From Darksidea phi (lineage: Eukaryota; Ascomycota; Dothideomycetes; Pleosporales; Lentitheciaceae), in the NCBI GenBank assembly GCA_030770425.1, contig JASJFT010000076.1, positions 1 to 64,000 of the forward strand: a stretch of DNA of 64,000 nt. Reading direction: 5' to 3'. The position numbers and the translations under genes are program-made. This document shows, in pieces, positions 6,880 through 55,961 of this stretch (its first letter is position 1; each line of letters starts with the position of its first letter). The notes under the pieces were generated by a model. It made no database searches and was not told where the DNA came from. It worked only from the letters and a program-made list of their open reading frames with translations.

Positions 6880-6928
6880 CCTAGGAGCTTAGACTACTAC
6901 TCGGCGTAACGTTACGTTGGCTCCTAGG
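6880..6928. repeat. Inverted repeat enclosing a 10-bp palindrome
   Basis: CCTAGGAGC at 6,880-6,888 is matched by its reverse complement GCTCCTAGG at 6,920-6,928. The loop holds the perfect palindrome GTAACGTTAC (6,906-6,915). It marks the left edge of a GC-richer island inside the RIP block and might be an element terminus; that is inference. Confidence 0.5.
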
Positions 6929-7703: not shown

Positions 7704-7767
7704 AAGGAAGCTGGCTAAGGATAAGAGATAGATATAAGGAAGCTAGCTAAGAATAAGAGATAGATAT
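7704..7767. repeat. 32-bp tandem duplication
   Basis: Two adjacent 32-bp copies (7,704-7,735 and 7,736-7,767) read AAGGAAGCTRGCTAAG followed by RATAAGAGATAGATAT. They differ at two positions. The left copy keeps a TpG that became TpA in the right copy, as RIP would do. Confidence 0.7.
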
Positions 7768-7919
7768 AGTAAGTAGAATACTAGTATTATCGCGGGTAAT
7801 TTTTATACTATAGGTAGTAGGTAGTAGTATTAGTACGCTAACTCCTCGCTACCGCTATTAGTCTCCTAACTAGGCTCTGTAGTTCGGTATTATATATTAT
7901 TTCTTATCTAGCGCCTTAA

Positions 7920-8082
7920 TATTCGAAATATTACCTCGTTACTTACGATCGATAGTACTATATATAGCTCTATAGCTCTATTATCGTATATAAGGTATAG
8001 GTATAGTACCTCTACTATATATAAACTCCTACTATATTTTATACGGACCTTCTAAAGAGACTCCTACTATATAAATTTAAAT
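7920..8082 (+). repeat. Dispersed repeat family A, copy 1 (RIP-mutated)
   Basis: This segment aligns along its length with two unmutated copies at 47,849-48,023 and 50,030-50,208. Shared landmarks are the TGTTCGAAACATC motif (here TATTCGAAATATT), the run around CTCTATTATCGT, and the ending ACTCCTACTATGTAAATCC (here with TpA in place of TpG). Most differences are the changes expected from RIP. No second flanking copy is visible nearby, so it is a lone copy. Confidence 0.8.
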
Positions 8083-13307: not shown

Positions 13308-13312
13308 TCTAC
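13308..13312. repeat. Left target-site duplication (TCTAC)
   Basis: TCTAC immediately precedes the 5' LTR. The right copy after the 3' LTR is TCTGC. The only difference is TpG to TpA, the RIP change, so both descend from a TCTGC target. Confidence 0.75.
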
Positions 13313-13567
13313 TATCGCGGAGTAGACGGCTTAGGGACTAAGTATAATTAGAGATTTTACTAAACGTAAGAATTAGTCTAGTACTAATAGCTATTTATTA
13401 AATCTTATAATCTAATAGTATCTAATATAGTCTAGTAGTATTAATATTAAGGTATAGTTAGAGGTCGTTTCTATATATAAAATACTATCTTTTTTAACTT
13501 ATAGAAATTAGAGCTTTTACTTTTAGAGACTATATATTATAGTAATTTATACTAAAATTATTATAAT
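13313..13567 (+). repeat. 5' LTR of the copia element (RIP-mutated)
   Basis: Aligns end to end with 18,612-18,867. It starts TATCGCGGAGTAGACGG and ends ATTATAAT where the 3' LTR has ACTGTGACA, so the original ends were TG...CA. Nearly all differences from the right LTR are CpA/TpG to TpA changes. Confidence 0.9.
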
Positions 13568-16500
13568 AGTTATAAGCCTAGATTATAACTAATTACTCTT
13601 AAATAATAATAACTTATTATCCTCGTCGTTAATATTAATTAACGTATAGAGAGCTAATATCCTTACTATTACCCTTATTATTACTAGAAACTCCTCGGCG
13701 CTTAGAGAGTTATTATTATTAATAATAAATACTAAAGAAGATTCCGTAATAATACGTATTATTATTATTCTTAAGATTTAGAGCGACTAGTATAAATAGC
13801 TATTTATTCTTAAGAATAAGATCGAATAATATAAAGTTTAGAAATACTATAATCCTAATCTTAAAATAGTACTAGATATTAAGGAACTAATAAAACCCTT
13901 ACTTATAATATATAAAGCCGGCGCTATTAATATAACTTAGCTATCGTTTAATAATTAAATATTATATAGAGTCGAGCTTACCTAATATTAAGAAGAGAAG
14001 AAGGACTATAAATAACTAGAGAAAGGTCTAAGGATAATTAACTTAGAGATTAGTAAAATAATTATAGTAATAAACCTATATTTAATATAAAATAAGAAAG
14101 ACTTATAGAATTAACTTAAGGTACTAAAGAGGTATATTATACCTATAGATACCTTATAATATTAGGAACTTAGAGCTAAATATAGGTAACTATAAATACC
14201 CTTATATAGTAAGAAGCTAGCTAACTAGCTATATAACTAGATTAAGATTATAAATAAGTATAAGACTATTAGTCTTTTTAACGTTAAAATATCTTATATA
14301 TAGAAGGACTTTATAAAAGTATACTATACGTTTAATATTAAGTATAGTACCTTAACTCTTTAAGATATTCTAAAGGCTTAATATAATAGAGTAAAAGTAT
14401 AGTTATTATAATACTATATTACTAAGTTCGAGTTATTTCTAAAGGTAGCTAAACTAGTTATAATAACTAGATATAATACTATAATTACTACTTAACTTAC
14501 TATTACTAATATAGATAATAGTAATAGCTCTAGTAATAATAATAATAATAACTAGGAAAAGAGAAATAATAGGATTTTAAAGATATATCTCTATAGATAA
14601 GTATATTAGTAGGTTAACTACTTTATACTTAATCCTTTAGTAAAGAAATATTCTAAGAACTATACTATAAGTACTAAGGTTAAATACTAAGTTAATAAAG
14701 CTCTAAAGGCTAATTTAATACTTAAAGCTCGTATTAATAAGGCTATTAAGTATTCGATAGACTATATTAAATAGAAGATAGCTTAGTCCGCTCCTATAAT
14801 ACTATTTAGCTTTAATAATAGGGCTTATCTATTAGAACCCTTAACTTATATAGTTTATATAATTAACGATATAGTTATACTAATAGATAATCTAGTAGTA
14901 CTTACTAGAGATTAAGACGCTATACGAAATAAGTATCTCTATAATTACTAGATATTAGATTTAGGTTTAAATATATACGTCGTTAACTTAAATCTATAGA
15001 TTAGATAGAAATAAAAGTATAATACTATAGCTTATAAATATATTAGTACTAATACTAGAACTATAAAAGTTAAAGCTTAGGGTTTTATAATATTTAAAAT
15101 CTATACTCCTTATAATAGTATAATAGAGATCTAATTAATATACGTTATCCTAGTCTCTAGCTTTATTACTAGTATAATAGAATTAGGAAGGTATTATACT
15201 ATTAATATTTATTTTAACTTAAGACGCGATATATTATATTATAAGAACTAGAGTAATATACTTACTCTACTCGAGTATTTAAATAGCTACTAGCTAGTCG
15301 ACGTCGATACTATATAAAGGCCGTATATTAAGCTATTATTATTATTTATAACTAACTATTAGAAGTTATATACCCTAAAGCCTATATAATAAGTTAGTAA
15401 TTAAATTACTTATCTAATATAGGGATACCCTAGCTAGAGAATAATAGCTTATCTAATAAATATCGTCTATAGAGTCGTCGTTAATAAAACTAATAATTAA
15501 AAGCTATATAAGATATATATTAAAATAAAGCTTATAAAGTAAATCTTATATTATTAATAGAAAGACTACGTAACGTAGCTATTTAAATATATATTATTAG
15601 ATATTATTTAGCTCCTACTAATAGGAGAAGAGTATCTTAATAGAGATAAATACGGAGGCTATAATATTAATTAATATACTAAGTAGTATAAAGTAGAAAT
15701 ATTTTCTAGTTATTTAAAATCTATTATTAATTACTAGGTTATATAGACCCTATATAAAATATAATATTAATTTAAATACGACGTTATTAAAGTATAAACT
15801 AATAATAAGCGAGGATTTAATATCTTATCTAACCTATTTAAATAGGTCTACGATAACCTAGATATTATATATAAGAAGTAAGTACCCTATATAAATAAAT
15901 AAAATAGAGGTACTAAATATACTAGAGTAACGTTAGTTATATACGCGAAAGTATTATAACTTTAGACTAATCTATCTAAATTACTATTAAATAAACTATT
16001 TCTAATAATAGTATATATTCTTAATAGAACGCTATTAGAGAAGCTAAACTAGAAAATACTATATAAGCTTATCTAGGGTAGAAAGTCTTAAGTTATTTAT
16101 ATATATTCTATTAGCTATAAAGTCTATATACTAAATAGATAGCTTAAAAAAGTTAATAAACTTAAGAGTAAAGTATTAATAGGTTATCTTATTAGTTATA
16201 ATTTAACGAATATCTATTATATCTAGCTATTAATAAAGAACTAGGTAATTTAAACTCGCGACGTTATATTTAACTTAGATAGTTTTTTTAAGGACCTAGA
16301 AGACTATACTAGAAAGTTAATTATTAAGGAAATTATCGAGCTACTCGATATACCTAATATTTAGTATCCTAAGAAAATTAGTATTAATAGTCTACTAATA
16401 TTATATTAATTAATAATAAGTAAAATAACTATACTAGCTTCTCCGACTAATACGTAGATAGGAGGTAAGAGATAGTAAGATAGCTAGACGTAGTAAAATA

Positions 16501-18609
16501 AGGTTATTAAGAAGGATACTAAATTCTATAGAGAACTACTTTTACTAGTATCTTTAGCTCGCGTTAATTCTAATTCGGCCCGCGCTAGTTCTAATTAGGT
16601 AAAGAACTTTAAAAACTCTTTAAATAATACTATAATATCTTTAAATAATACTTTAACGTAATAAAATTAACTAATAAACTTATTATAAGAACTTAGTATA
16701 ACTAAAATACCTAGATATAGCCCTAATTAAACTAAAAATAATACTCTAAGAAGATAAAATCTCGATCTTAATAAGTCTAATATTATTCTAGAAGGATACT
16801 TAGTATAATTAGCTTACTTATATAATCTATATTATTAAGTATATCTATTATTCTATATAAATACTAATAATACTATATATAACTATCTATATAGCTTTAT
16901 TATAATAATAAAGTAGAATCTAGAATATAAGGTTTATTAATTATAGTTATCTAAGTCTCTAAAGAATTTTTAGTAGCTAAGTAGTTACCTATATAGTAAT
17001 TAATTCTAAGCTACTACTAATATAGAATATTATTTAGTATAAATAAAAAGATACTTTATAAAGATCTTACTTCGAGCTACTAATATTAATATAGAGGTAC
17101 TATTATTAATATAAGTATTTATCTATAAAATCGATATAAATAGCTACCTTTTAAAATTTAAGACCTAGATTATAATTTAAGATAACTTATAATAGCTATA
17201 TAGTAATATCTATACTACTATACTAGCTACTTACTTATTTTATACTCTACTCGTAATTACTAATTAGTTTAACCTAGAGTTAAAGTAATATAATATTCTA
17301 ACGACCTTTTTTAATATAAAGCTTAAGAAATATATCTATATAAGAATATTAGATAGCTTTAAGTATAACGATAAGATTCTAGAGGTACTATATATCCTTT
17401 ATAGACTTAAAGAGATACTACTATTATAGTATAACGAATTTAAGAAGACTCTAAATTAACTTAATATATAAGAAGTAGAAGGATTTTCTTATATATATAT
17501 TAATAACTAGCTAATTCTATTTATATATATCGATAATATTATTATAGCTTATTACTCTAAAAATACTAGGCTTTATAAACGTTTTAAGATAGATTTTATA
17601 AACTATTATAATATTAAGAAGTTAGATAATCTAAAGTAGTACCTAGAAATTCGAGTTATATAGAATATAGAGAAATAATTAATTTAGCTTATATAAGACG
17701 CTTATATTAATAAAGTTACTAGAGAGTTTAATATCTAATTAGATTCTTACCCTATAGAAATACTACTTATAGTAAATTAATATAAGTTATTTATTAAAAA
17801 ATCTAATAAAACGCGTATAAAATATTATTAATAACTAGTTAGTTATCTCGCGTATTTTATATAGTAAACGCGACCTAATTTAACTTATTCTTATAGTTTA
17901 TTAGTAAGTTACTTTATAAATCTAAGATAGTAGTATATAGCTCTAATTAAGTATATATAATAATATATTAATAAGATAAAATATTATACTCTATAAAGAA
18001 TAGTTATATAATATAGTAAAGTAGTTAAATATAATATAATTAATAATAAAATAATTAAATAGTCTAGAGCTACTAGTAATTTCCTAGGTATAGTAGATAT
18101 AGCGTTTACTAATAATATCTATACTTATTAGAATAGCTAGAGCTATCTATTTTAACTATTTAATATAACTATTAATTAGAAATTAGCTTAATAATATACT
18201 ATTATAAAGAGTATAACTAAGGTAGAACTACTCGTCCTAAACTTTACTAGTTTAGAGATAGCTAAATAGTTAAGGCTATTTAAAGGATTTAACCTTAAAC
18301 TTAATAAGACGTCTATTATTTAGTATAATAACTAGTAAATAGTTAGTATTACTATAAAGTAAGAGGAAAAACTTAATACTAAGCTTAAATATATTAATAT
18401 CTATTAGAGCTAGATTTAATAGGAGGTTATTTATAGCTACCTTAACGTATAATAACTATCTACTACTAAGATATCTACTAACGAACTTACTAAGATCCTT
18501 CTAAAGTAAAAGTATATATAGTTTATAAAGTAATTAGACCTCGTTAATATTAAAAGTCTAATTAAATAGGTTAACTTTAAGGGCTACGAGTACCTCTAAG
18601 CTAAGGGGG
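13568..18609 (+). pseudogene. Copia gag-pol remnants
   Basis: The internal region no longer codes continuously, but the plus strand still shows copia pol spacing. At about 15,780-15,830 there is an integrase-core-like stretch. At about 17,280-17,500 lies the reverse transcriptase core (a Leu-Tyr-x-Leu-Lys stretch before the catalytic box). At 17,511-17,549 is the YVDD-box remnant. At about 17,630-17,660 is a Leu-Lys-x-Tyr-Leu-x-Ile-Arg-Val remnant that normally follows it. Stops arise mainly where Trp or Gln codons have RIP changes. The gag start and protease were not located with confidence. Confidence 0.75.
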
Positions 18610-18611
18610 TA

Positions 18612-18867
18612 TATTACGGAGTAGATAGCTTAGGGACTAAGTATAATTAGAGATTTTACTAGGCGTAAGGATTAGCCTAGTACTAACGGCTATTTACTAA
18701 ATCTCGTAATCTAATAGTATCTAATACAGTCTAGTAGTGTTAGTATTAAGGTATAGTTAGGGGTCGTTTCTGTACATAAAATACCGTCTTTTTCAACTCA
18801 TAGAAATCAGAGCTTTCACTTTCAGAGACTGCGCACTACAGTGATTCACACTGAAATCACTGTGACA
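18612..18867 (+). repeat. 3' LTR of the copia element; RIP boundary
   Basis: Right LTR, ending ACTGTGACA and followed by TCTGC. Its first about 115 bp lacks CpA/TpG like the rest of the block. From about 18,727 CpA and TpG reappear, and the last about 100 bp looks unmutated (TTTCTGTACATAAAATACCG and onward). The end of the RIP tract therefore lies inside this LTR. Confidence 0.92.
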
Positions 18868-18872
18868 TCTGC
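18868..18872. repeat. Right target-site duplication (TCTGC)
   Basis: Unmutated partner of TCTAC at 13,308-13,312. It fixes the element's right end at 18,867 and marks the return to ordinary genomic sequence. Confidence 0.75.
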
Positions 18873-20635
18873 ACCTGCAGCTAAAGATGCAAGCAACACT
18901 CCCTCCGTCAAGTATCGAGGCTGACCCACACTCTTGTAAAGCACTAAACTTCAAGTTTAACCCCCAAGTGAACCTCCGTTCCAATTGCTTACTTGTTAGC
19001 GGGGGTGAGTTTTCGTGTTGTACACGCGTTTAGCTGTGGGGCGATTCGGCGCTGCGATGCCGGGATCGATTCTCTCAAGCCAAGGTCATCTGAACGTCCA
19101 CTCATGAAGTAGATTTTCGGATGAATTTTCTCGAGCGAATAGTATTAACTTGGTCTCCTCTCATGCCTCCCGCTCGTTCCCTTCATTGGAGTCACTACGG
19201 GAGACGACGACCCACCGCCACCGTAATCCATATTCTGCGCAGTCTCTCTGGTCGCCCACAAAGTAGTAAAAGCTCTATGGGTTAATGCTATTAGGAGGAT
19301 AACTAATAGCGTATATCCCTTAACTCTTTACTCGCCCCGTTTAAAAATATATACTTTCCCTATCGGCTTCCATGCGGAACCGGCGTCTTTTCTTATTAAG
19401 AACCCCACGTACGTGCAATAATTGCGGGACTTTCACAAATTTTGGTTTGCTATTGATGGTGGTTTGCCTACAGTGACATGGGATTTCAGATAGCCCGCGT
19501 AATAGCTCGCACCACTTGCTAAAATGCCTGGCCCTACCAACATTGCGGAGGAGGCTATTCCACCTCACACCTGCGCGCACACTCCTCACTTCTCCGCTCG
19601 CTGCCAGCTAATAATACACACGCTGAAATCTCATTGCGAGAGAAATGACAAAGTGGAAACACGCCGAACGCAGCCAGGCGCCAGCTGTTTAAAAAGACTA
19701 CCTGACCAAACCAGTAAATGGAGAATCCATGAAGAGGCATTAGAGTTGGCAACAGAAAATGTATTGGCGTTCGAGTGGTAGGAAATCCAGTGATTGGACT
19801 GGAGGATAGGTCAGAAAGTATACCGGGGCAGACTTAAAAAATATACACAATTTTGAGTTCGACTGGCTTGGGGAATCGCCTCCACGTAGTTCGATATCAA
19901 TGAAGACAATGAAGACGGTCTACAAGGTGGTGCCCGGATTTCTCGGGACTCTGAGGTATTGTCCCAAGAACTGCCCGCTCGGTCACCATCGGGCAGGAGT
20001 GTTGCCTGGGTCGCAGCTCCCAAAACAGGCGACTGCAGCCGTGCCCTACAGGCCTAATGCAGTGGCTTGTACCGTAGAGATACCTCTTAAATGTCATACT
20101 GCTCACCGGAACTTCTTCGACACAAGGCCCTTCGCTCGTAGCGGCGTTCGACGAACCATTAAACGCTCACGGTGGCCAATCACGAATCCCACGCTTTAGA
20201 GCTAAGCCTGTATAACAGTTAATTGGAAGGGGCACTGCGTGGCACTGTCACGGTGAACTGTAGTAAGGTTAAAGTAGACTCGAGCTATTTGTTTGCGAAT
20301 ATAACGTTAGATCTACACCTCTTGTCGAGAAAATCAATCAAAGCATATCCAGGGTCATTTTGTGTAACGCTTCCCACATATTCATAGCCGCGGGGTTACC
20401 GCCGGCGCCTCCCCATCCATCCTTCCAGCCCTTCCACCTCCGCTGGTTCTTGCCTTGGGTTGACCAGTATCCGCCGGATTCTTTGTCACAGCAGAATGTT
20501 TACTTAGCCCGGCCTTCTTCCCTATACTCGGTCCTCGTGACTCTTTGTGTGAGGGGCGTGCCTGGATAGGTCCTGATCTCGTGCGGTGAGTCTCCCGCGT
20601 GATGTGCTGAGTGACAGGCGCTACGGCCTTTAGTA
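18873..20635. other. Intergenic, no supported gene
   Basis: Ordinary base composition. Short overlapping ORFs on both strands show no family resemblance. An 85-bp patch at about 19,288-19,371 again almost lacks CpA/TpG and may be a short RIP-touched repeat fragment. Confidence 0.6.
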
Positions 20636-21121
20636 CTACTTACCCCTAAGTTTCTTATTTGGGGCTGTTTGCGAAGGGAGAGGCTCGCGTTTCAAGTTTG
20701 CGATCCTAGCAATGCCATGCGGTGGCGGATGATTGTCTTCGTTTTGAACCTTGTTGACCTTGACCCGAGGGGTGCGATGGTCCAAACACTGTGAGTTCTG
20801 TGGTGGAGGAATCACAGTACCTTGTTGCGGTCTGGGTAGTTCTAGAGGCGAATCTTTATGCTCTCCTGAGGGTGATGGAGCTGGCGGGAAAAGAGGAAAC
20901 CAGTTAGAAACTGAGGGTGGCTCAAGCTTCTGAACCGTGTTCTTAGCGCTTGCGATTCGGTCTAAGGTGTGTCCAGGAAAGTTTCGTCGCCCTAAGTATC
21001 CTTCCTCGATGGTCCAGAAACCCGAAGGTTGCTCAGAACGCGGAAGCTGAATGGTCTCTGGATCACCAATCTCAGAAAGGGTGAACTCCATACTTGTGAT
21101 ATCCACTTGGGTGTCTTCCAT
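20636..21121 (-). CDS. Hypothetical protein, 161 aa
   Basis: Single-exon ORF with an ATG at 21,121. The product is hydrophilic and Pro-rich (Pro runs near residues 80 and 105-110), with a basic C-terminal end (KREPLPSQTAPNKKLRGK). No membrane segment, signal peptide or recognisable domain is seen, and I do not recognise the family. The composition suggests a disordered protein. It lies upstream of nothing in an obvious operon-like relation; the next minus-strand gene (21,281-22,041) ends 160 bp before its start. It could be a fragment or a chance ORF. Confidence 0.35.
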   Translation of the reverse strand: MEDTQVDITSMEFTLSEIGDPETIQLPRSEQPSGFWTIEEGYLGRRNFPGHTLDRIASAKNTVQKLEPPSVSNWFPLFPPAPSPSGEHKDSPLELPRPQQGTVIPPPQNSQCLDHRTPRVKVNKVQNEDNHPPPHGIARIANLKREPLPSQTAPNKKLRGK

Positions 21122-21280
21122 GCTCTTTATAGGGTTAAGACCCTCGGGCTCGGGGGAGGAGGGCTCGTGTCGCCACTTCTAGGAAGTAACCCACTTCGTT
21201 CTATTAAATTCTTCTCTCCGGTCCCCACGCTCCTTCCACCACTTAGTAACTTACAGATAAGCTGAATATAGGTGGAGTTG

Positions 21281-22041
21281 TCAATACTCGTTGGAGAGGC
21301 GAAAGTACCGCGCCCTTTCTTCGGCTACTTCGACCCAAAAGATAAACTAAGGCCTAGAGATGATAAAAGATTCGGCTTCGGAAGCGGATGTATCTTCTTT
21401 AAGATGCGAGCGTGGGATTGCGGGGGAGCTCTTACCGCGACGTAGGTTCTGGCGTAAATGTAGGGCGCATGCAAGGAGGTGTTGCGTATAGAGATTTTTA
21501 GGACCAGGACCGTCTGCCTCGTATTGCTGCCATGGCCACTTCCACCCTGCAACGTCGTCGTTGGGCTGAACCCTACGTCCGGGAAACCCCACTCGGAATT
21601 CCAGACACCGAGTTGCTCCCAGCGGCGCTTGATGTTGTGACGAACGAGGACACCTAGTCGCTGAAAACCCTCCACTCCTCGCAACTTGTTGTTCGCCCTG
21701 TAACGAGACACGCGGGATTGCTCAAGGCCCGCCTCTGTGTAGTAGACGTCGCCGGGTTGTATAGTAGATTCTAGGCAGTAATGGTCGAGCTCGCCAGTGC
21801 GAATAGGTTGATGCATGATCGACTGCAGCTCTTCTGGAAGCTCGCCGCGTAGCGGTGATGGTGGTGCATCGTCGAGCTCTTCCGACTCGGTCGATTCGGC
21901 GTAGCGAGGCGGATCATCGCGCTTGAAGCGCGTGAGGGAACGGTTCCGTAGATTGTCGTTTGCAGCGAGTGCCTCGAGGAGGGATAGGGCTTGGTCGTGC
22001 AGCGCGTGGTGAAGCTGGATACGATCTAGAAATGGCGGCAT
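21281..22041 (-). pseudogene. Conserved hypothetical fungal protein, frameshift plus nonsense
   Basis: The ATG at 22,041 opens a frame with an N-terminal helical segment (MPPFLDRIQLHHALHDQ) and an acidic, Pro-rich middle. A basic segment (RRWEQLGVWNSEWGFP) follows at about 21,590. There the sensible frame shifts: the next frame continues with a Trp-rich stretch (GWKWPWQQ) and an Arg/Ser stretch (LRRGKSSPAIPRS) ending in ESFIISRP. Then a TAG at 21,347-21,349 stands where a Trp codon is expected, since the frame goes on for 21 residues to a natural TGA at 21,281-21,283. TGG to TAG is a RIP-type change. The family pattern is one I associate with uncharacterised Dothideomycete proteins; the function is unknown. 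Confidence 0.6.
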
Positions 22042-22891
22042 AACTTGGACGACGCAGTGAGTGAGTCAGTATAGGAGATGGCTGGAAGGAAGAGGGCTGG
22101 AGGGAGTTGTTGGAGTTGCGGCGACGCACAAGCACAGCGTGACAGCCAACGGTTGCTGCTGCCAAGCAACCGAGTATTGAGTCCCCTGGAGGCGACTTTC
22201 CTTGCACTTCCTGCTCTATCTGGTCCTCCGCCTTTTCCAATGCATCCAAAAACACTCTTCCACCTCGTGCCCACCAACCCTCTTGCACCCCGACAACAAG
22301 AGTTTTGTCTCCAGCTCCAGCCTCAACCGTGGTTCTAGCCCCGAGTTTATAGCGTAGCAGGACCCCTTCATCACCGCTCTAACATAAGCCCTCATCACAC
22401 TTGACAATCATAATATAGTAGTATTCGAGCCTTGAAGCCTTACTATCAAGCTGATACGTCATCTTCAGTCCCGTGGCGGCCGAGAACGACTCTAAGCGAG
22501 ATGGCCCGGAGATTTTCGAAGGTTAGCGCAAGTCTCACATAAGTATGCCAATAGTGCTAGCACTACGGAGTCGCGGGCGGTCAGCGAAGTGAGAGATCGA
22601 ACGAACACTGATATGAGCGTTATTTTGATGACAAGGCGACCGTGGATCGTGGGTCGCAGCATGTTTCGACGTCGGAGCTTTGCGGTTTCACCCACATGTC
22701 ACTTATATATGGAATGATATGGGTCTAGGTCGGAGGACGATGTGCTCTTTCAACAAGACGAAGCATCGGGTCTTCGCTTTACGGCCACTGTCACATATGC
22801 CACAATGCTATGGAATGATGAATTGCGAAGAGACATAGCCATCTACTCTGATCAGGATTCTGAATGCACTGGCTCGCCTCAGACCCAGTCT
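22042..22891. other. Intergenic, no supported gene
   Basis: Only short overlapping ORFs without coding character. It separates the broken hypothetical gene from the phosphotransferase gene; both are on the minus strand. Confidence 0.55.
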
Positions 22892-23722
22892 CTACGGCTC
22901 GAGAGCCCTCACGAGTTTCGCAAGCTCGGTCGGATTTTCGTGCATGGTTTTGTACATGCGGACATATCCAACCGTGTCAACAGCCCACTGGTCAAGAAAG
23001 ACCGGAGGGAAAAAACCACCATTTTCTAGGTCAAGCAGGGCCTCCACCGTCAAGGTGAGCGGGTCGATCATGATATTAAAAGGCCCCAGGTCGCCATGAC
23101 AGAAAACAAACTCCGGTGTAGCAGATGTCTTCGTCTTCCAGACCCCCCTCCTGTCCATCTCGGTCACCCAAGGCGGCGGGATGACAACTCCGTTAAACCC
23201 AGTCGTATGTGACTTTAGCTCACTAAACTGGGGGAGGACCACCTCCTCGATGAAAGTTATCGCCTCCATGGTCGCTAACGCCTTGCAGGCCCGGCACCGG
23301 GCTGGCTGGTGGCCATGCAGCGACGGTAGCTGGCACTTGTCTCCGATTTCGGCGAGCGGGACGCCGTCGATGAGTTCGGTTGTCACGAAGAAGCCATTTG
23401 GCCCTTCGCCAACATCGATAACCGCCGGAACCGGGATGGTTGTCCTTTTTTTGATGAACTGCAGTGCAGCAGCTTCGTTGTACACGCGCTCTCGCGGCCA
23501 TTTTTTGGCCCTGTCTATCCCCCGATAGTCCGGCAGCTTGAGCGGCTTGATTGCTTTGGTGATGGTACCGGCCTCATGATCACGTGTAATGATAGTCTGC
23601 CGCTCCTGAGTCATGTGGTCTGGAAAGGCATTGGCCCAAGGAGTGGTAATGCTTGAGGGAGAGATGACGAGATTTTGAGCGAGAGATGAGGCTCGGGGAT
23701 TTCTCGAGCGCTCAAAATCCAT
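22892..23722 (-). CDS. APH-family phosphotransferase (kinase-like fold)
   Basis: Intact single-exon ORF of 276 aa from an ATG at 23,722. It shows the aminoglycoside phosphotransferase/choline-kinase fold. An N-lobe with RERVYNEAAALQFIKKRT (about 77-94) and IPVPAVIDVG leads to the catalytic loop FCHGDLGPFNIMID (about 207-220), with the Asp of HGD and the metal-binding Asn. The second metal site is LLDLENGGFFPP (about 229-240). The enzyme would transfer phosphate from ATP to an unknown small molecule or protein; fungal members are mostly uncharacterised. The C-terminus (LVRALEP) looks complete. A related but broken gene lies at 56,726-57,490. The first about 40 residues are not part of the fold, and an internal Met at about 37 could be the true start. 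Confidence 0.85.
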   Translation of the reverse strand: MDFERSRNPRASSLAQNLVISPSSITTPWANAFPDHMTQERQTIITRDHEAGTITKAIKPLKLPDYRGIDRAKKWPRERVYNEAAALQFIKKRTTIPVPAVIDVGEGPNGFFVTTELIDGVPLAEIGDKCQLPSLHGHQPARCRACKALATMEAITFIEEVVLPQFSELKSHTTGFNGVVIPPPWVTEMDRRGVWKTKTSATPEFVFCHGDLGPFNIMIDPLTLTVEALLDLENGGFFPPVFLDQWAVDTVGYVRMYKTMHENPTELAKLVRALEP

Positions 23723-25124
23723 GGCGGAAACGCTAGATATCCCTCGTAAGTTGGCCGAATTAGTCGCTCAGCGCCGCAAGACCGGTTTGTGTAGCCAATA
23801 GGATGCAGATTCACATTGAAAACGACTTTGCAGTCAGCCTCGGTCCCGGATTGTTAAGTAACTCGGATACATCAATCCGCTAAGTCCTTTTGGCATAACA
23901 GGAAGGGATTTGGGACGAGGTTTGCGAGTCTGGGGAGGGTATCCGACAGAGGATAGTGAGCGCTGAGACTTGCATCCCTTATAGGCTATTCCGTGCGGTT
24001 CACATGTTCTTGTTGCGGGATTGGGTTATTTCCGGCCCGTAGCCATCTGACCAATCCGTCTCGCCCATCGGCCGCACCAACAGCATCTAAATTAGTCCTT
24101 TACATCATGAACCGAGTTCTCAGCTAAACCCACCTCTCAACATTCGCTCCGTATGCCCTGCACCTGCCCGCACCCTTCTCCTCGACGTTCAGCTCCGCCG
24201 TCGCCCGCGCCGCTCCAGAAACACACAGCGGATTGATGTCCTCGTAGGCGATAGTCAGCCCGCTAGCTACGGTCATGTCGGCTAACTTGGCGTGGCGAAC
24301 GGTGTCCAGAACGTACGAAGTGACGTTCCGACTTGACTGGGTGTCTGACGCGCTATTCACGACCATCCACACGATGACGGCCACCTCGCCACCCAAACAC
24401 GATTGACGCGCGCGACGTTTCTGTGCGGGCTCCACGCCATCGCCGACAGCACCGCAACGCCTCCACAAGCGCAGGGGCAGTAGAGAAGCATGTCAATGAT
24501 TCCGAATCAGGCAGCGGCGAGCAGGCTCCTCCACTACAGACACGTGTTGTCACGGAAGATGGCGAGGAGGGAGCCACAGTCGAGGACGAGCGGTCAGCGT
24601 TGCAGACTATCACCAAGAAGCTAGCGAATGCGCCCAAATCGGTCGGCTCGATTGGTGACAGCATTGTGGACTATGTTGTGCCGAGTTGGGCAATGTAGCT
24701 GCCGGCGACGGCCACCGCAATCACGATGACGAGGTCACTTCGAGCCACAGCTAGGTCATCATGAGGGTACACACAACGATCGAGGGTATATAATGGTGAG
24801 CAATCCACCTCGCTGCAACTGGGGCTTCAAATGCAAAGGGTTTTCGCACATTATGTAAGCAGACGCTGGGAGGGTGTGGCTGGAGGCTGCACCACGCAGT
24901 GATTGGATGGAGACTTTGATGGGGTTTTGGGCCCCCACCTTCCTGAGAAGGGGAGACGAGGACTTGATTGGAGGGATTACATGACTGTGGAATGGATGGG
25001 TTCGACGGAGTGGCTGTGGGATGGACGGAGTGGGTTCGACGGAGTGGCTGTAGGGGGTCTGTGCTGTGCTCCCCGGGCGGGGTAGAGGGCGTGTGGAGTG
25101 CGCTCTCCTATTCTTCTCCCTACC
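23723..25124. other. Intergenic with weak minus-strand coding traces
   Basis: On the minus strand, 24,124-24,366 and the stretch just upstream show patches of plausible protein (for example TSYVLDTVRHAKLADMTVAS) in different frames and without a good ATG. This may be a decayed gene of unknown type. The long minus ORF at 24,759-25,472 is treated as an antisense shadow of the F-box gene. Confidence 0.35.
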
Positions 25125-25171
25125 TTCTTTTTTCTTCTTTCTACCTTCTTTTTTTCTTCTTTGCGGTCGGG
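25125..25171 (+). promoter_or_regulatory. Pyrimidine-rich tract before the F-box gene
   Basis: An almost unbroken CT tract (TTCTTCTTTCTACCTTCTTT repeated in variants) ends just before the ATG at 25,172. CT-rich tracts immediately upstream of the start are typical of core promoters of filamentous fungi. It supports the choice of this ATG. Confidence 0.5.
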
Positions 25172-25432
25172 ATGGCGTCGCTGGAGAACGTACCGGTGGA
25201 GTTGTTGTTGCTTGTTGTGGAGCGTTTGAGGGGAGTGCGGGAGCTAAGTGCGCTACGGGCGGCGTCGCGAGGTTGGAAGGCGCGGGTAGATCGCGGGTTT
25301 CGGGCTTGGTTGAGGATGCAGGCGGTGGGGGTGCCGCTGCCGTCGTTCTCGTCGTCTTCCGTCGGCTTCGTGGGGAATCGAGTGCAACGTAGGTGCTCTT
25401 TTTCCCTTCTCCGCCTCGTTTGGCAGGGCTGA
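25172..25432 (+). CDS. F-box domain protein (short or truncated)
   Basis: The ATG follows the CT-rich tract. The first about 43 residues match an F-box: MASLENVPVELLLLVVERL, then a Leu/Ala-rich helix (RELSALRAASRGWKARVDRG). F-box proteins recruit substrates to SCF ubiquitin ligases through Skp1. The frame stops after 86 aa, short for the family, whose members carry a C-terminal substrate-binding part. A 38-bp GT-AG segment (25,389-25,426) could be spliced to continue in an open frame to 25,716, giving about 168 aa with two Cys-containing stretches. A 38-bp intron is unusually short, so a frameshifted pseudogene is an equal possibility. Confidence 0.55.
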   Translation: MASLENVPVELLLLVVERLRGVRELSALRAASRGWKARVDRGFRAWLRMQAVGVPLPSFSSSSVGFVGNRVQRRCSFSLLRLVWQG

Positions 25433-27279
25433 CTAGGGAGGTAGTGCTGGCGGATGAAGGAGTGTCGGTCAAGTGCGAGATCGGAGAGGGCGGTCTACAA
25501 GAGTGCTGGTTGACTAAGGAAAGTGGGCTTGCTGAGTGTCGGGTTGAATACGACTGTCAGCGTTGTGGGCTGTTGGGGGAAAGGACGGTGACGGGACGGC
25601 GTGGGTATCCACAACTGCGAAGAGACGTTAGAGAACTTTATAGGGGAGTCCTACGACACGCTGCCTCTCGTGAACACGCGCGGCGACGCCCTCTTTCCGC
25701 GAGCACACCGCTGTAGACCGACCAGCTGTCACACAGCACATACTTTTCCAATTCGACGTTCACGATAACGGAGCTTGAAGAGTAGGCTAGGTGCTTTCAC
25801 ATCTATACACTGCGGCATGTAGCATTAGAAGGACACAAGAGAACCCTACGACCGATTACATTTTCTTTATATCACCGTGTTCCCTTTTCGTAAGAGATAG
25901 TAACGATAGGGTCTTGTAATCCATCTTGCACTTCCCGAAGCCAGTACTTTGTCATCGCCGTTATAGGGGAGAGTGGTGTGTTGCAGGCTGTGCCACAACA
26001 GGGGTTGGGGTCGTTTGCTTCCTTATAATCCTTCACGCAGGTCGAGGGGTTGGAGCAGGTGCGTGTCTTACGTTTGGGGATTTGATCTGACAGCATGCGA
26101 AGAACGTCGTGCTTATTCACACATCCTGAGAAGGTTAGCACTAAGCAAGTATGGCTGCTAGCTTTGGCTGTGTTGTATCATTGCAAGTGACCAAGGTTAG
26201 CGCGCCGGAGCTGATAACGGCCGTATCCCCATGTCATTGCCCCGCTTTGCCAACATATCATCCTTCACATCATCCTTTACCCGATATGGCAGCATGACTT
26301 ATCTTCAGCCATAGTCTTGGCGATGTACAATGTTGTTGACTCACCGCAAGAGAGACCTGATCCTACCTGCCTCTCAAGCTATTTATTCCGCTCTGCATCC
26401 ATGAGCCACCTCATCAGCATCATCCTCTACCTTCTTATAAGCCATTGCGGATTGAGATACAGGGACTACTAGAGACTATACAGCAGCTTCTTCCTAACGT
26501 AGCTTAGTACCCGCTTAAGCCCTTTCCGTAGCTAGCGGGCCGCACTCTTGCGAGCCTCACACACGCGGCGTTGTATAGAGAGGATAATATTTGTTCTTCC
26601 AAAGGCGGTCAGTCTATACGGCATAAGTACTTAGCATAGGCAATGAAAGGAAGGCCACTAAAGTAAGTATACATTGCCGAAACACGCTATCTGGTGCCAT
26701 TTGACTAATATCGCGGATCTTTCGCTAGGCGCACTGTAGACGCATGTCTAAGGAAGGTAAGCTTTCTGGAAATCCTCGAAAGCATTATAGCCAAGATATT
26801 TACCTTATACGATGGTCTGGGATTCTAGTCTTAAGCCGACGGCTTCCTCTTTTGACAAATTACAAAATGAAGACATTATTGGCGGAATGAGAACTCTCCG
26901 CTTAGCACCAGCACAAACCGCCCTCCCAAAATTTAATCTGAGTAAAACTGTAGCTGCTGCTACTGCCCGCCCATACCATTACTCCCACCACATACAAAAT
27001 CAGCTGCATCAACCACCGGCATCGAGGCTACGGATCAATATCGCATATCGACTCCGAAGCTAGATATCGCAATCGGGCTTGCACACACTGCATTCATACA
27101 ACAGAATCAGCGGCGGATCAGGGCCAATACTGAGCAATCTGAAATGGCCATAAGGCTCCCCTTCAGTTGTGCAAGCAAAGGGGTTGAGTCCGAACAGGAG
27201 TCTTAGTGCGCAGAATCGAGCCGCCATTAGTGGTGGCTTCTAGGCTTACGATCTTGAGAGATCTCAGCCATTAGGCGGT
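25433..27279. other. Intergenic; possible F-box continuation to 25,716
   Basis: Up to 25,716 a plus frame remains open and may belong to the F-box gene. Beyond that only short ORFs without recognisable character are present. Confidence 0.5.
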
Positions 27280-27696
27280 ATGGAACGCGCTTGGACTCTG
27301 ATTCTGGATTCTGCACGCTGGATATGGCCCTACATCGTCATGTCCGACTCCGTCGGCGTCGCAATCGACTCTATAACAGGAAAAAACAGAGCTGTGACAG
27401 AAGGCCCGTTTATGAGCTGGGGGTACATTTTGAACATGAAGGCACATTTTATATGGAGTTCATTCGTCGCGGCGCACTGCCAACGCGATGGGCAAGGGCT
27501 TGCCCAATTTCTGGCTCGGTTAATGGAATGGGGCAGGGGAAGATTCAAGGACGGCATCGTGGGAGAGCTGGATAAGGTCCAAAGATGTGGGCCTTTTGGG
27601 CAAATAGCGTGGAGAGGAACGCCCTCTAGCAAAGTGCAATGTTCATCATTTTGTTTTAATTCCCTAGGATATTCTGGAAGTAGCTACACTAGGTAG
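27280..27696 (+). CDS. Hypothetical ORF, 138 aa
   Basis: ORF from an ATG at 27,280. The product is rich in Trp and aromatic residues and has no recognisable domain. A second plus frame over the same bases (27,291-27,575) is also open, so the assignment is weak. A poly-A run follows at 27,721. It is listed only as a possible gene or gene remnant. Confidence 0.2.
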   Translation: MERAWTLILDSARWIWPYIVMSDSVGVAIDSITGKNRAVTEGPFMSWGYILNMKAHFIWSSFVAAHCQRDGQGLAQFLARLMEWGRGRFKDGIVGELDKVQRCGPFGQIAWRGTPSSKVQCSSFCFNSLGYSGSSYTR

Positions 27697-28389
27697 CTAA
27701 TTTGAATGCTATCTAATTTTAAAAAAAAAACAGTAAATGTATTAAAATATGTAATATATATGGATTAACGTTATATCTAAGCTTGAAGTCATATCTCAGT
27801 AATACAGAAGTTCGGACTCTAGAAAGGCTAGGAGTGTGCTTGAATCTGACACGACCGGGGTTGATATTGGCCTACTCCAAGGCGAAGATATGAAGCAGTG
27901 ATGCCAAACAGGATGCCGACATGTGTCGGCCTATACTGACAACCGTTAGTCACCCGCCACTACTTCAAGTCTAGAACTTGACTGTCCCTAATCTGCCAAG
28001 CGTTTCATTTCTTTGAGTGTAGAATCCAACCTCCTATATTAAAAGCCGACGCGCGTTTGATTATTTGAAGTATCCATGGAAAAGAACATTTCATCAACCT
28101 CACATGAATGGTCCCAGCATTGATCCACTGATTGAGCAGGGAACATGAAACCAGCAGATCCCTTCGGACGTTTCCTGGCATTGTGCACAGCATGTTCGAG
28201 AAGCAGAAGACGGTGTCGAGGGTATACTAATAACACTCGAAGATGGCAGAAAAGCTAGTTAATCAGGCGAAATATTAATGCGCTATGAGAAGGAAATCTG
28301 TACATAACGCTTCCTACAAATATATTTCACGCCTGATTCCTTCAACTAGAGCTTCATTTACGGTCCTGTGGTTTGAACACAAGATGAAC
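27697..28389. other. Intergenic, no supported gene
   Basis: AT-richer stretch with an A10 run at 27,721-27,730. Short ORFs only. Confidence 0.5.
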
Positions 28390-47848: not shown

Positions 47849-48023
47849 CCTCCATGTTCGATGTTCGAAACATCGCCTCGTCGCTCACGATCGACAGTAC
47901 TGTGTACAGCTCTACAGCTCTATTATCGTGTAAAAGATATAGGTATAGCACCTCTACTGTGTACAAACTCGTATTATGTTTTGTACGGACCTAAACACGG
48001 ACTCCTACAATGGAAATCCAAAC
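47849..48023 (+). repeat. Dispersed repeat family A, copy 2
   Basis: Starts CCTCCATGTTCGATGTTCGA and ends near GGAAATCCAAAC. Matches copy 3 (reverse strand, 50,030-50,208) over almost all its length and copy 1 in its RIP-mutated form. Contains GTTCGAAAC, which fits a pol III B-box consensus (GWTCRANNC). It lies just upstream of the diterpene cyclase pseudogene. Confidence 0.8.
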
Positions 48024-48097
48024 TAGAATAAAAATAAAAAGGATCAAAAACTCTGACAAGAGCATTACTTGCACCGGGTAGCGGTCGACCTTATTCA

Positions 48098-51000
48098 ATG
48101 CCACGAGAAGTCCCCGACTGCATCCCAACGAAAACGGAAGAAGCTCTCGCCCGATCTGTATCGTTCAGTCCAGCAATCCATGGCTCAGCATGGCTCTCGA
48201 TGGAGTATATACCGGACGATTCTAGCCGGTTCCCACAATGCTTCGAACACCTTCTCGAAAACACACCGCGACGACGACACATGGACCTCTTACGGATCGC
48301 AGATAGATGGCATAGCATAATAAACACGTCGGCATCAATACTTGCTTTGGTGGAGCGACTCAAGAGAACGTCAATCAACTCAGAGAAGGACTCACTACAA
48401 CCCAGAGTTGAAAAAGCCATGAATGGCGTCCAAGGACTATTGTAAGAGTAGGGTGCAGACAAGACGGTACTACACGTTGGCCTCAAGATTCTGGTGGCTA
48501 GTCTGCTGCGGCAACTTGAGGCATTTGATATCGAGTTTGATATCCCAGGCCAGCCAAAGCTCATGGTAGTCTATGAGCGGAAGATGGCGAAATTCACCCC
48601 AATGATAGTCTATGCGCCTGTGCAGTCTACCATTCTACATTCAATTGAAGCATTAGCCGGCATGATCGACTTTAGCAAAGTACGACATCATTGTACCGAG
48701 GCTTCAGGTATAATAGGTTCCCCATCGGCCACCGCTGCATATCTGATCCGTGCTAACGAATGAGACGAGCGAGCAGAGACCTACCTGGCGCAAGTCCTTG
48801 ACCTATATGGAAAGAACGGCGAAGTCCCCAGCGCATTCCGAACCTCAATCTTCGATGTTTCGTGAGCTTTCTCTAATAGTCTTTCTCGGATGAATGTCGC
48901 AACACGCATGGACCGTGACGGCATTTTTCATACTGTCTTGTTCTTCGAGCGCACGGTTGTGGAGCAGAAGGGTATGGTTGGATTTGCACCTAATTTGCAC
49001 CTAGACTACTACCCGACTCAGATGACACGGCTCGCACACTCATGACACTCAAGGCATCGGGCGCTACACTTGAACCTACTCCGTTAGTCGCAAGATTCAG
49101 AACAGCGACCACTTTCGGACCCACGAACTTGAGCGCAATCCATCCGTCGGCGCCAACTGTAACGTCCTGCTAGCTCTGCTCGAGCTTGACACAGTCGACG
49201 GCTATGTGGCGCTAATTACCAAGATTTTGACATTTTGCTTGGAGCTTGGAGCTCTGGTGGTGTGCCTGACAAATGGAACATCTCACCCCAATACATTTGC
49301 ATGCTGCTGACAGAGGCTTTCGTTAATCTCCTGAAGCGATACGACAAGGATCAAATCCAGGATCCGCGTTCCTCGATTGCGCCGAAACAGATCCCTGTTG
49401 CGCTCTGCCAGATCCTACTTCGAACTTTTGGAGCTCAACAGACCCCCGGGTCATGGTCGACCTCCTTGGAAGAAACGGCACACAGCATTGCCATGATCAC
49501 ACATTGTCAGCATCTCCCCTTAAACCAATGCCTAATCTCTCAATTTGACAAAGCTTTTGCATCCGCCCAGGCATTCATTAATACGCCATATCCCAACGAC
49601 CAAGTGAATCACTACGTCTAGGTCGAGAAGCCCGCTCATGAATCCCACTTCCTCAAGCTAGCCTACTGTAGTATGACAATGCATACTAAGGACGCCCGAC
49701 CTAACCGGAATTGGAGCTCAGAAATTACATCGAGCTTCCGCACCCTAGATTCATACATAGGAAGACGGGTATGCTCCTAGCCGCTCTACCCATCTTCCCA
49801 AGATCACAAATCGTATCCACCGACCTTATTCTTCTTAAAACGATGTATGTCGCGAAGAGCTTGAAAGAGGCGCGACACTCAGTTATGGAAGGAGGCTCGA
49901 TTAGCTTTACGAAAGATAAGTACTCGGATTACGTTCCGGTTATTTAGCTAGCATGCAACAGCATCGGAGAGAATACGCTGAAAGACTAGATTATAAGGGA
50001 TATGGTCTTATTAGTAATGTGCAACTATCAATTGGTTTGGATTTACATAGTAGGAGTCTCTTTTGTAAAGTTTGTACACAGTAGAGGTGCTATACCCACA
50101 CCTTATACACGATAATAGAGCTGTAGAGTTGTACCCAGTACTATTGATCGAGGGCGACGAGGTGATGTTTCGAACATCGAACATGGAGGCGACGAGCAAT
50201 GACATGTGAATGTTCAGCTATCGTATTAACGAGTATATAGAGTCAGCCATCGTTGAACTTCCTAATGAGGAGCTGGACTATTTGTGCGCACGCATTCGAT
50301 TCGAATGCGGGCTGGCGAAGGCCTCATCGCCGTCACATGAGGACTCGGGCAGTGGGTATACGGATGAGCCATCGACTAAGCAAAGGAAGCTTAGCACAGT
50401 GGTAGGTGGCATTAAGAGTATGCCAACTACTAGCGACAATGACTACCAGGAGGATTGCGAGAGTGCATGTAGGCCAAATTCACTCGAGCTTATCGTTGTG
50501 GTCCTACGGAAATATATATCCTACGTCTTGCGACATCCTTCGGTTCTTCAAGCACCATCCTAGAACCAGCACTCCCTTGCCATTAAGCTTCAAAATTACC
50601 TCATCGGCCAGATCAACCACAACAGAGCTAATCGAGCCTCCAGCTCTTCGAAGGCTGGTACCAAGTACCACGGCTACACATCAGCCGAGATAGCTCGATC
50701 CACATATTAGATGTAGATCAATACTACCGGTGCAGATGATACGAGTTGCGAGATCTCATGGCACTTCTTCGTCTGCCTCGTTAGCAAGGCTGGGGAGTCT
50801 TGCCTGGATGGCATGCTGGCTAGGTACTACGGCAAGAGCTTCGTCAGGCATCTGACAGTTTTATGCAGGCTGTGCAATGACTTAGGCTCAGCGACGAGGG
50901 ATGCAGAGGAGGACGACTTGAACAGTGTCGTCTTCGCTGAGTTCGCAACGGATGCTAATGGAGCCTCCGAGCTCCCGGGTATGGCCACAAGCGAGAAGGC

Positions 51001-51157
51001 ACAAGAGCATCCCATGGAAATTGCGGAATTCGAGAGGGCACAGATGAAGCTTTCTTTGGACATGCTGCAGAGGACCATAGATGATGGAGCAATGGTGAAG
51101 CGGAGCCGAGTATTCGTGAATGTGGCGGATAGCTTTGGGCAGGTCTACTTTGTGTAA
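48098..51157 (+). pseudogene. Bifunctional diterpene cyclase (CPS/KS-type) relic
   Basis: Fragments in order match fungal copalyl diphosphate/kaurene-type synthases. An N-terminal FSPAIHGSAWLSME and FPQCFEHLLEN come first (48,160-48,260). Then VGLKILVASLLRQLEAFDIE and GSPSATAAYLIRANE follow (48,475-48,760). The class II acid motif Asp-Ser-Asp-Asp is at 49,015-49,026. Then come DKWNISPQYICMLL and GSWSTSLEETAHSIAMI (49,270-49,500). The class I domain has NEYIES (50,228-50,245), KYISYVLRHP and the NSE-like CNDLGSATRDAEE (about 50,873-50,911). In-frame stops are at 48,443 (TAA), 48,449 (TAG), 48,761 and 48,863 (TGA) and 49,619 (TAG). At least four frameshifts and the family A insertion at 50,030 also break it. 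Without the insertion the length (about 2.87 kb) fits the usual about 950 aa. The product is unknown; the first Asp of the class I motif reads Asn. Confidence 0.88.
50030..50208 (-). mobile_element. Dispersed repeat family A, copy 3, inside the cyclase gene
   Basis: A 179-bp copy in reverse orientation lies within the class I domain of the cyclase relic. It is flanked by imperfect 14-bp direct repeats, AATGTGCAACTATC (50,016-50,029) and AATGTTCAGCTATC (50,209-50,222), 12 of 14 identical. With one repeat and the element removed, the flanking codons join in frame. The long target duplication, small size and B-box-like GTTCGAAAC point to a SINE-like retroposon rather than a solo LTR, but no A box or terminal A-run is clear. 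Confidence 0.7.
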
Positions 51158-51844
51158 GATATTGTGAGTTGTAATCAGCCGAAGACCAAATGAAGTCTGG
51201 GCCGATTTCTCGAGAGATGCGATATGGAGATGAGGGATAAGCGAACCCAAGGTAAAAGATTTTTAGTCTCATTCTAGATATATAATTGAAGGGTTTATAC
51301 TAGACCTCTGTTTTCATGCAGATTGAAGTTAATGTTCTTTTTTTCCATTAAGATCTTATAAATTCTAAGGATATATGTATTATGCATCGACAAGATGAGC
51401 TGACCGAGGTCACCGGAAAGACTATTGGTGTACTTCAGGGCCTTGTCCGTAAACGGGAGTAAGACATGACGATGTAGTAGCGCGCCCGTGGCGACGCCGC
51501 CTCCGGTTGCGTAGCTACGTTGGAAGTTATAGAACGGTCGAGGAACGCGGACGACTTTCGAAGTAGCGCTACGCGCGCTTTGTGGGGTCAAAAGATAAAG
51601 ATGAGTGATGTCGTAGGCGGAAGGGTAGCTGCGTAGGTACCTGGATAGATCGATGCGACTATAAAGGATGGAGGGCAGAGGTGGGAGATAGGACAGAGGG
51701 TGGAAATAGGATGGTGGAAATAGGACGGTGGAAATAAGACAGAGGGTCCAGGCTGAGCACGGACCAATGAAGAAGTTTCTATAGGATGTTAGCAGCCGGT
51801 TATATTTCAGCTGCTCTCAAGTCTGGTAGACTATCGTCGCTACC
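51158..51844. other. Intergenic with a 14-bp tandem repeat
   Basis: Three units of about 14 bp (GTGGAAATAGGAYG) run from 51,700 to about 51,741. Otherwise no gene; the minus ORF at 51,295-51,591 has no ATG. Confidence 0.5.
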
Positions 51845-54164: not shown

Positions 54165-55955
54165 CTACGCGTCAAGCTCCAAAACCCACCTCGTCTTCCT
54201 ATCAAACTCATCCCTCTCCTCGCCTTCCAACCCCGCCAAGCGCCCTTCCCGCAACTCCTTGATCAGTCCAACCGCCTCCGCAAACGTCTCATTCGACGTA
54301 TATCCCTCATCCGTCAAAGTCCCACTCAACTGCTTCCAAAACTCCTGGCTCTGATTGAAAGTCTTGACCTCTTCATCATGCGTCTGTAGCTCTTCCGCGG
54401 AGAATCGATATGGGCATGGCTGGTCGGTATAAAAGTGCGCCCACTCTCTAGCTAGAATGTCAGCGCTGTTTAAGCATCGAGTGGATGTTCCGGACGAGCA
54501 TCTCATACCTTTCCACACTAATCAAACATTGCTGTAATGGGTAGAGACAATTGTCCCAAGTAGCTCCGGCGAAAGCATCGAGCTGCTTAAGCGTTTTGCC
54601 GCAGTCCGTGTTTCATAGGCATGGATTAGGATGGACTGGGAGACTTGATATCGCAACCGATCCTTAGTCCCCTCGTCCAGCTCTTTAAACCCGTCTGGCA
54701 ACTTCATCATCATCTCGACTCCATAATCTAAAAGCGGCGGCGGGTTGGCACCGATGAATACCGGTGTAGTCCACGCGCCCTGCCAGTCGATAATTGATGA
54801 AATCCGCCCTCGATCGTCGATGTAGATATTTCCGGCGTGAAAGTCTGGATGCCATATTCGAGGCGAGACGAGTTCAGGGTCGTTGGGGATGATATGGGGG
54901 ATTGTAGATAGGTATTTGTGTAAAGCAGCGATATGGGCTTCCGGTGAATGTTGCTCTGGACTCGTATATTGCAATGCATTCTCGGTCGCTTTCCGGGGAT
55001 CTGCGAAGGTTTCAATCCAGGCTATCTCGCGCTTAGCAACCGACTCGAGATACTCTCTTGAAGAATTCCCTAGGGGCATTGTAAGCTGGATGGAAGATTT
55101 CATGGGTCTGAGAGGCTTACAGGGGCCTTGATACTGATGCAAATTACTGCGTTCCTTTTCCCAGAACTCTTTTCGAACGGTGGGGCCGATGCAGAAACGA
55201 GATTGAATTTGATGACGAATGTCTCCAAGACCAGTTTCGCAAATATCAGCAGGCTCACATCCTGAAATACCGCTGTCATTGAAATACAATGAGCCTATCC
55301 TGTTGATGCGTGTTGGCCATGCTAGCTACAAACTTTAAGGGACAACGTGCCTGTTGAAAGATATCGAAAGCAATTTTCTTTCCATGTCCACGATTTCGTA
55401 GATGATATCACATTTGGTTCGTAATTGTAGATCCACCCATACTTTGTAGAGGGGCGAACCTTTTGCTTCTTCCATGATAATGTATTCTGCCTTGACGGGG
55501 TTTTGGTCGGTAGCAGACCAAGCAAGAACTTTTGGCACAGGTAAACTCAAGATCGTCCTAGCAAACTCCATAGTAGCCACCTCCGATGATGTTGTAAGTA
55601 GTGGCGGACCAGCGTTAGGATGTGGGATCTTAGCTATCAATCTCTGGCCATTTTCCAATGTAAGGCGGTAGGCCTTATTGTAGTTACCCTCTCCGATTTT
55701 CTCTAAAGATACGCATTGGCTCGCTCCCACAGCCTGATAGGCTGCTTTCTGCAGACTATGGACGTCGAAATATCGGTATCGAGCTTCCAGATGCTCGCGT
55801 TCGTTCCAGAGCCATCGCCCGCTCGTGTAGCGAAAAAAAGGATCCATATCAGTCGGAGGCTGAAACGACATCTGATGGTTATGCCTCCGGGGGCGAAGGA
55901 AGCGAGTGGAGTTCGATTTTGCAATTTCAGTGAAGAAGGTTCGGATAAACGCCAT
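54165..55955 (-). pseudogene. AIM9-like APH-family phosphotransferase, frameshifted
   Basis: Three exons can be laid out. Exon 1 is 55,955-55,351: a basic, possibly mitochondrial N-terminus, then MDPFFRYTSGRWLWNEREHL and VATMEFARTILSLPVPKVLA. Next comes a 51-bp segment (55,350-55,300) that fits a GC-AG intron, restoring SFNR joined to IGSLYFNDSG. Exon 2 is 55,299-54,509 with the catalytic HPDFHAGNIYID and IIDWQGAW. Then a 61-bp intron (54,508-54,448; donor GTATGAG, GCTGAC, acceptor CTAG) restores VER joined to EWAHFY. Exon 3 is 54,447-54,165. Near 54,600-54,620 the frame breaks: the upstream frame reads ETRTAAK, while the family pattern (KTLKQLDAFAGATWDNC) is in another frame. It is therefore a pseudogene unless the frameshift is a sequence error. 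The family includes yeast Aim9; substrate unknown. Confidence 0.8.
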
Positions 55956-55961
55956 TAAGTA

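Follow-up and report, generated by a model that had tools for sequence, protein, structure and literature searches.

A decayed bifunctional diterpene synthase gene of Darksidea phi and its intact, P450-flanked homologue in the same genome

Results

The window, the whole stretch of DNA analysed here, comprises positions 1-64,000 of contig C452 of the Darksidea phi assembly (51.35 Mb, 477 contigs). It carries a pseudogene of a fungal bifunctional diterpene synthase, which begins with an ATG at 48,098-48,100, ends with an in-frame TAA at 51,155-51,157 and is divided by a dispersed repeat (Table 1). A homologue of 954 aa, encoded by a single stop-free exon, lies elsewhere in the same genome (C56:13,968-16,832).

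Table 1. Features of the diterpene synthase relic and of the associated repeat, in window coordinates
Feature	Position	Strand	Basis
Fungal bifunctional diterpene synthase (CPS/KS type) pseudogene, single exon, ATG to TAA	48098..51157	+	C56 homology and alignment
5' part: class II (beta-gamma) domains and beginning of class I (alpha) domain; broken by premature stops and changes of frame	48098..50028	+	C56 alignment; PDB match of piece 49190-49621
Class II DxDD motif, DSDD in the relic (DADD in C56)	49015..49026	+	Sequence and alignment
Dispersed repeat insertion interrupting the class I motif region	50029..50208 (about)	+	Genome search, alignment
3' part: remainder of class I (alpha) domain, with NEYIE near its start (DEYME in C56)	50209..51157	+	C56 alignment
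Class I NSE-type motif, NDLGSATRDAEE in the relic (NDFGSMARDREE in C56)	50876..50911	+	Alignment
Further copy of this repeat (91%), just upstream of the relic and in opposite orientation to the inserted one	47849..47969	-	Repeat search

When the genome was searched with residues 3-954 of the C56 protein (952 aa), three matches were found in the window, on one strand and in collinear order: 48,068-49,753 (E 8.1e-124), 49,756-50,034 (E 4.6e-19) and 50,201-51,184 (E 3.9e-63). An alignment that allows for frame changes covers query residues 2-945 of 952, with 449 of 935 codons identical (48%). This near end-to-end agreement bears out the proposal of the initial annotation that the locus is what is left of a full-length CPS/KS-type cyclase, and the relic is an ordinary pseudogene, a dead member of a known family.

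Individual pieces of the relic are less readily named. The open piece 49,190-49,621 alone matches the copalyl diphosphate synthases 8v0f and 9q3i among PDB sequences (E 1e-6). The class I half is weakly recognised by itself: the last piece (50,717-51,157) has terpene-synthase C-terminal matches in Pfam at E 0.004-0.005, below the cut-off, and none among PDB sequences, and the other pieces of the ten scanned match no terpene-synthase family in Pfam. The intact C56 protein likewise matches no Pfam model at E 0.01, and NCBIfam returned no family for the C56 protein, two relic pieces, or the homologues P0001 and P0055. Family assignment therefore rests on homologues named ent-kaurene synthase (the NCBI name of many fungal bifunctional diterpene synthases), on motifs and on fold.

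With regard to fold, the predicted structure of the C56 protein (42 aligned sequences, mean pLDDT 89.4, pTM 0.89) has as its top Foldseek match the class II domain of the Penicillium enzyme 9q3i (TMt 0.88 for the class II part), followed by a Mycobacterium diterpene cyclase and then abietadiene synthase. The three-domain abietadiene synthase 3s9v aligns with the model over 958 columns at an rmsd of 24, indicating that the domains of the model are set differently; the type I diterpene synthase 9m25 of Streptomyces matches weakly (E 1.1e-3). We considered whether the relic might be a copalyl diphosphate synthase fused to a prenyltransferase, as we take 8v0f (presumably also from Penicillium) and 9q3i to be. 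The class II cyclase domain of these enzymes is matched both by the relic piece and by the C56 protein, but the latter only over residues ~15-535. The C-terminal part of the C56 protein carries an NSE-type class I motif, as does that of the relic, whose last piece has no PDB match, and the fusion was rejected.

Both the intact DSDD and the NSE-like motif described by the initial annotation are present in the alignment with C56. The class I DExxE motif, which that annotation did not mention as the site of the repeat insertion, is not intact: it is split by the repeat, and its 3' side has diverged from that of C56. A DExxE site was not found in 11 cases in a survey of fungal diterpene synthases, as excerpted (PMC4617483). 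We read the altered motif of the relic as probable decay, such that membership of the family is claimed for its ancestor and not for a working enzyme. The relic has HVGLKI and DSDDTAR and C56 has HVGFEI and DADDTAR, whereas the Fusarium fujikuroi row in Table 1 of the survey, in the part drawn on here, reads NHIGVEF and DVDDTAK (PMC4617483). In this respect, the relic and C56 resemble the Aspergillus and Trichoderma rows of that table and differ from the row of the gibberellin producer. Of the labdane-, kaurane- or gibberellin-type products allowed by the initial annotation, which held that the product could not be told, the gibberellin type is thus disfavoured by motifs alone; that the product is not to be told from these data still holds.

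The relic as it stands cannot make a full protein. Its aligned codons include ten stops, the last of which is the presumed natural end and nine of which are premature; five further stops lie in inserted codons, and there are seven frame changes. The earlier count of about five stops was too low, and its several indels and one inserted repeat are both borne out. Among 142 comparable near-invariant residues (the same in at least 95% of 61 rows), 115 are kept in the relic and 27 lost. Could the gene be intact and its breaks mostly errors of sequencing or assembly? The assembly is in 477 contigs, and base-calling indels might in principle account for seven frame changes, but such errors fit poorly with a 180-bp repeat inside an active-site motif, aligned codons that hold nine premature stops, the loss of 27 near-invariant residues, and a C56 gene in the same assembly that is open over 954 codons. 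We consider this explanation very improbable.

The ~180-bp repeat occurs at no fewer than 40 places in the genome (best 40 of 654 candidates; of 42 rows, two are additional pieces of a place already counted), and may be a MITE, a SINE-like element or a solo terminal repeat. The inserted copy is flanked on both sides by an 18-base stretch that is similar at 12 of 18 positions by eye and may be what is left of a target-site duplication.

Six of the nine premature stops stand at positions where C56 has Trp (four TAG and two TGA, within 48,761-50,716). Simulation predicts 0.8-2.3 stops at Trp sites; of the 1000 runs at each setting, 0 to 0.5% reached six. Six stops can be derived from the C56 codon by one change, which in every case is G-to-A (6 of 30 opportunities, with C-to-T at 0 of 43); more than one change separates the remaining three premature stops from C56. 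This excess may in part reflect ascertainment bias, since conservation reveals the ancestral codon at most Trp columns, whereas many codons for Gln have diverged. A concentration of stops at Trp codons is also the pattern that a reassigned codon would leave, which speaks for a functional gene with introns, recoding or stop read-through. However, the Trp-site stops are of two kinds, the remaining three premature stops fall at Asp, Ser and Ala positions, TGG is retained at 7 of 15 Trp codons, and seven frame changes are left over. Nor do introns explain the unmatched stretches, which are at most 24 bases, and so too small, outside a 196-base stretch that holds the repeat. A functional gene of this kind is scarcely credible.

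A further possibility is that, once duplicated, the copy suffered light repeat-induced point mutation (RIP). In support of this, CpA-to-TpA changes are commoner from C56 to the relic (50/240) than in reverse (27/211; Fisher p 0.024), while all other C-to-T changes show no excess (141/564 versus 133/537; p 0.94); four of the six Trp stops are TpG-to-TpA changes; and positions 1-18,000 of the window are strongly RIP-like (TpA/ApT 1.56, substrate index 0.01, GC 23%). Against this, the p of 0.024 is one among several comparisons and the excess is not significant on either strand taken singly (p 0.08 and 0.21). The relic's own indices are ordinary (0.76 and 1.26, compared with 0.58 and 1.36 for C56 and 0.76 and 1.18 for the window at 52-64 kb), none of 38 aligned Gln codons of C56 has become a stop, and CpC changes are also up (52/177 versus 33/161), which RIP does not predict. 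Moreover, RIP has a threshold, and the relic and C56 are too different from one another for RIP between them. Damage by RIP is therefore judged unlikely, and the Trp stops are best regarded as a mild oddity and a weak hint of light RIP.

Apart from its breaks, the relic bears the marks of past constraint. It differs from C56 at 1238 of 2805 aligned bases (365, 284 and 589 at codon positions 1, 2 and 3), or 39/30/63% by position, indicating that most of the divergence built up under constraint; dN is 0.44 (NG86; dN only). In neutral simulations with transition weights of 1 to 8, nine stops required a median of 221-308 random changes, or 0.08-0.11 per site. Taken together with the retained near-invariant residues and the substitution pattern, this simulated accumulation of stops suggests that death came rather late and that the gene would have been functional during the greater part of its separate history.

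To place the relic among its relatives, we used the best 120 of the 228 proteins that the C56 protein retrieved at E up to 0.001 (the best 7998 candidates scored). Within these 120, the top homologue of C56 is P0001, a predicted protein of Polyplosphaeria fusca (74% identical); many of the set are named ent-kaurene synthase, and 118 others are 34-48% identical to C56. Summed tblastn scores of C56 and these 120 against the relic are highest for C56 (692 bits), followed by P0001 (671) and P0002 (594), and none of the 120 is closer to the relic than C56 by this measure. C56 and P0001 are thus its nearest kin by score; the C56 gene is open throughout and the relic is not. For each of three open pieces of the relic, a tree was built together with C56 and 60 of the 120 proteins, 61 homologues in all. 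In the trees of pieces B and C, the relic groups with C56, P0001 and P0002 (SH-aLRT 95), whereas for piece A it falls only in a seven-row set (SH-aLRT 86) that also holds P0003, P0004 and P0006; by identity, the relic comes closest to P0004 in piece A and to P0026 in piece C. The end branches of the relic are long (0.69-2.1), and long branches can falsely push a row outward, so that its position beside C56, P0001 and P0002 is supported but soft, as read from these piece trees.

These relationships bear on whether the gene was acquired by horizontal transfer instead of arising by old duplication. A published tree, in the portion drawn on here, suggests transfers of fungal diterpene-synthase genes (PMC4617483), and outside the gene blastn found no DNA common to the surroundings of the relic and of C56, which leaves room for such an event. 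However, the nearest kin by score are a gene of the same genome and one of P. fusca, and nothing requires transfer, which we regard as distinctly unlikely. Under the preferred reading, an old duplication, the relic would have split from the lineage of C56, P. fusca and P0002 before those three separated.

The C56 protein has at least 25 matches on at least 11 contigs among the best candidates in the genome. Four of the 11 loci, those on C56, C446, C401 and C2, look intact. The latter three would have introns and show no stops in matched columns; on C2, stops are confined to insertions 15-16 codons long. By simple pattern matching, DxDD was found on C446, C401 and C2, and a class I motif on C401 and C2 but not C446. 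The NSE pattern matched at none of seven loci tried, so that 'intact-looking' refers to reading frames, not motifs. Elsewhere, C37 and C28 are incomplete with stops in matched columns, C284 and C35 hold C-terminal parts (that of C35 showing 87% identity across 255 residues with the Periconia macrospinosa protein P0108), and C357 and C17 give short matches. The short remnant on C17 (40,467-42,469) lies ~500 bp from a P450 match. At C5:134,045-140,585, terpene-synthase and polyprenyl-synthase matches are separated by ~0.7 kb, and a P450 lies 4 kb further on, which looks like a chimeric terpene synthase cluster.

The intact C56 synthase has two P450 genes (C56:1,875-2,774, Pfam E 5e-27; and C56:7,353-9,224, E 9e-24) and an MFS gene within ~12 kb, and further neighbours include a HAD hydrolase and AMP-binding/PP-binding frames. 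C56:1-17,000 is likely a working diterpenoid cluster. That C56 lacked a P450 was considered and rejected: both genes were found by tblastn and Pfam, having been missed by a PF00067 search (best 92 of 375 candidates). A polyprenyl-synthase family search of the genome gave nine matches, none on C56 or C452, and four polyprenyl synthases searched against C56 gave nothing below E 0.05 in 8,000-27,900 or below 0.1 in 1-8,200.

The relic, unlike the C56 gene, is not accompanied by two P450s and an MFS gene. In agreement with the initial annotation, which saw no P450 or GGPP synthase neighbour, tblastn of the window with 13 P450 and 4 polyprenyl-synthase queries gave no convincing match for either family, within the reach of a search that could miss decayed remnants; the best hit had an E of 0.009, with 15 of 47 residues identical, in a 59-aa frame without a Pfam match at E 1. 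For 12 loci the P450 query was the longest open frame, which at some, L054 among them, differs from the P450 frame; in a control, queries taken from a different locus recovered 11 of 11 other loci. The MFS, HAD and putative methyltransferase (recognised by eye, not named by Pfam) neighbours of C56 likewise matched nothing in the window at E 1. Of ten open frames scanned with Pfam from 33.8 to 60.9 kb, five had matches (a kinase, an HNH match, two APH pieces and an FAD-binding-like match) and five had none. The APH pieces are adjoining frames at 54,522-55,961 on the minus strand that hold different parts of the phosphotransferase domain, as an intron or a broken gene would leave. Rfam gave no matches in the window and ARAGORN no tRNAs. 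The AT-rich block at 1-18,000 gives way to normal GC between ~18 and 20 kb.

Discussion

We describe a relic that is almost certainly a dead paralogue in a multi-copy diterpene-synthase family, constrained for most of its separate history and then broken. It resembles the fungal bifunctional diterpene synthases (CPS/KS, di-TPS) in length, domain order, DxDD and NSE-type motif, as well as in its intronless layout, which some of them share, as far as excerpts of the survey of Fischer et al. (2015) describe them (PMC4617483); it differs in being broken in many places, with DExxE split and altered. By analogy with that family, the ancestor would have been a single-exon class II/class I enzyme whose DxDD site cyclised GGPP to a copalyl-type diphosphate, an intermediate that DExxE/NSE would then have ionised. 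Purifying selection would have acted on its lineage through most of the time since the split, until function was lost, and stops, frame changes and the repeat insertion would have gathered thereafter.

The initial annotation held that this lineage once could make a cyclic diterpene. The 'once' does not stand, given that the same genome has an intact homologue with P450s on C56 and three more intact-looking synthases, and loss of the pathway from the lineage is rejected in view of the C56 gene. The relic is one dead copy; an intact, P450-flanked member is present in the same genome, and the chemistry is not lost.

The family is large by comparison with the 2015 survey, which in the part excerpted reports a single copy in 39 of 48 fungal species and three at most (PMC4617483). 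In Magnaporthe oryzae, the portion consulted of another report describes six kinds of di-TPS across strains (MoDiTPS1-6; 59 enzymes in 14 genomes), some inactive by assay, and its authors raise pseudogenes as an outcome (PMC10512213). That expanded set with inactive members is like the one described here; from what the same portion gives, inactivity was shown there by assay (PMC10512213), whereas the relic is visibly decayed in its sequence. Among open-access titles and abstract openings, we found nothing on this relic or on 11 such loci in one fungus. A more ambitious account would combine an unusually large birth-and-death family (11 loci, four intact-looking and seven damaged or partial) with loss of the relic partly through mild RIP-like G-to-A changes at conserved Trp codons (the six of nine stops) and through a repeat in the class I catalytic motif; as a whole, this is quite improbable.

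Altogether, the relic adds to the known cases in which fungal diterpenoid metabolism has lost a gene. By itself it settles no open question, the large family and the Trp stops being minor points of interest. More usefully, it points to the C56 gene with its P450s, together with the three intact-looking synthases, as targets for product discovery.
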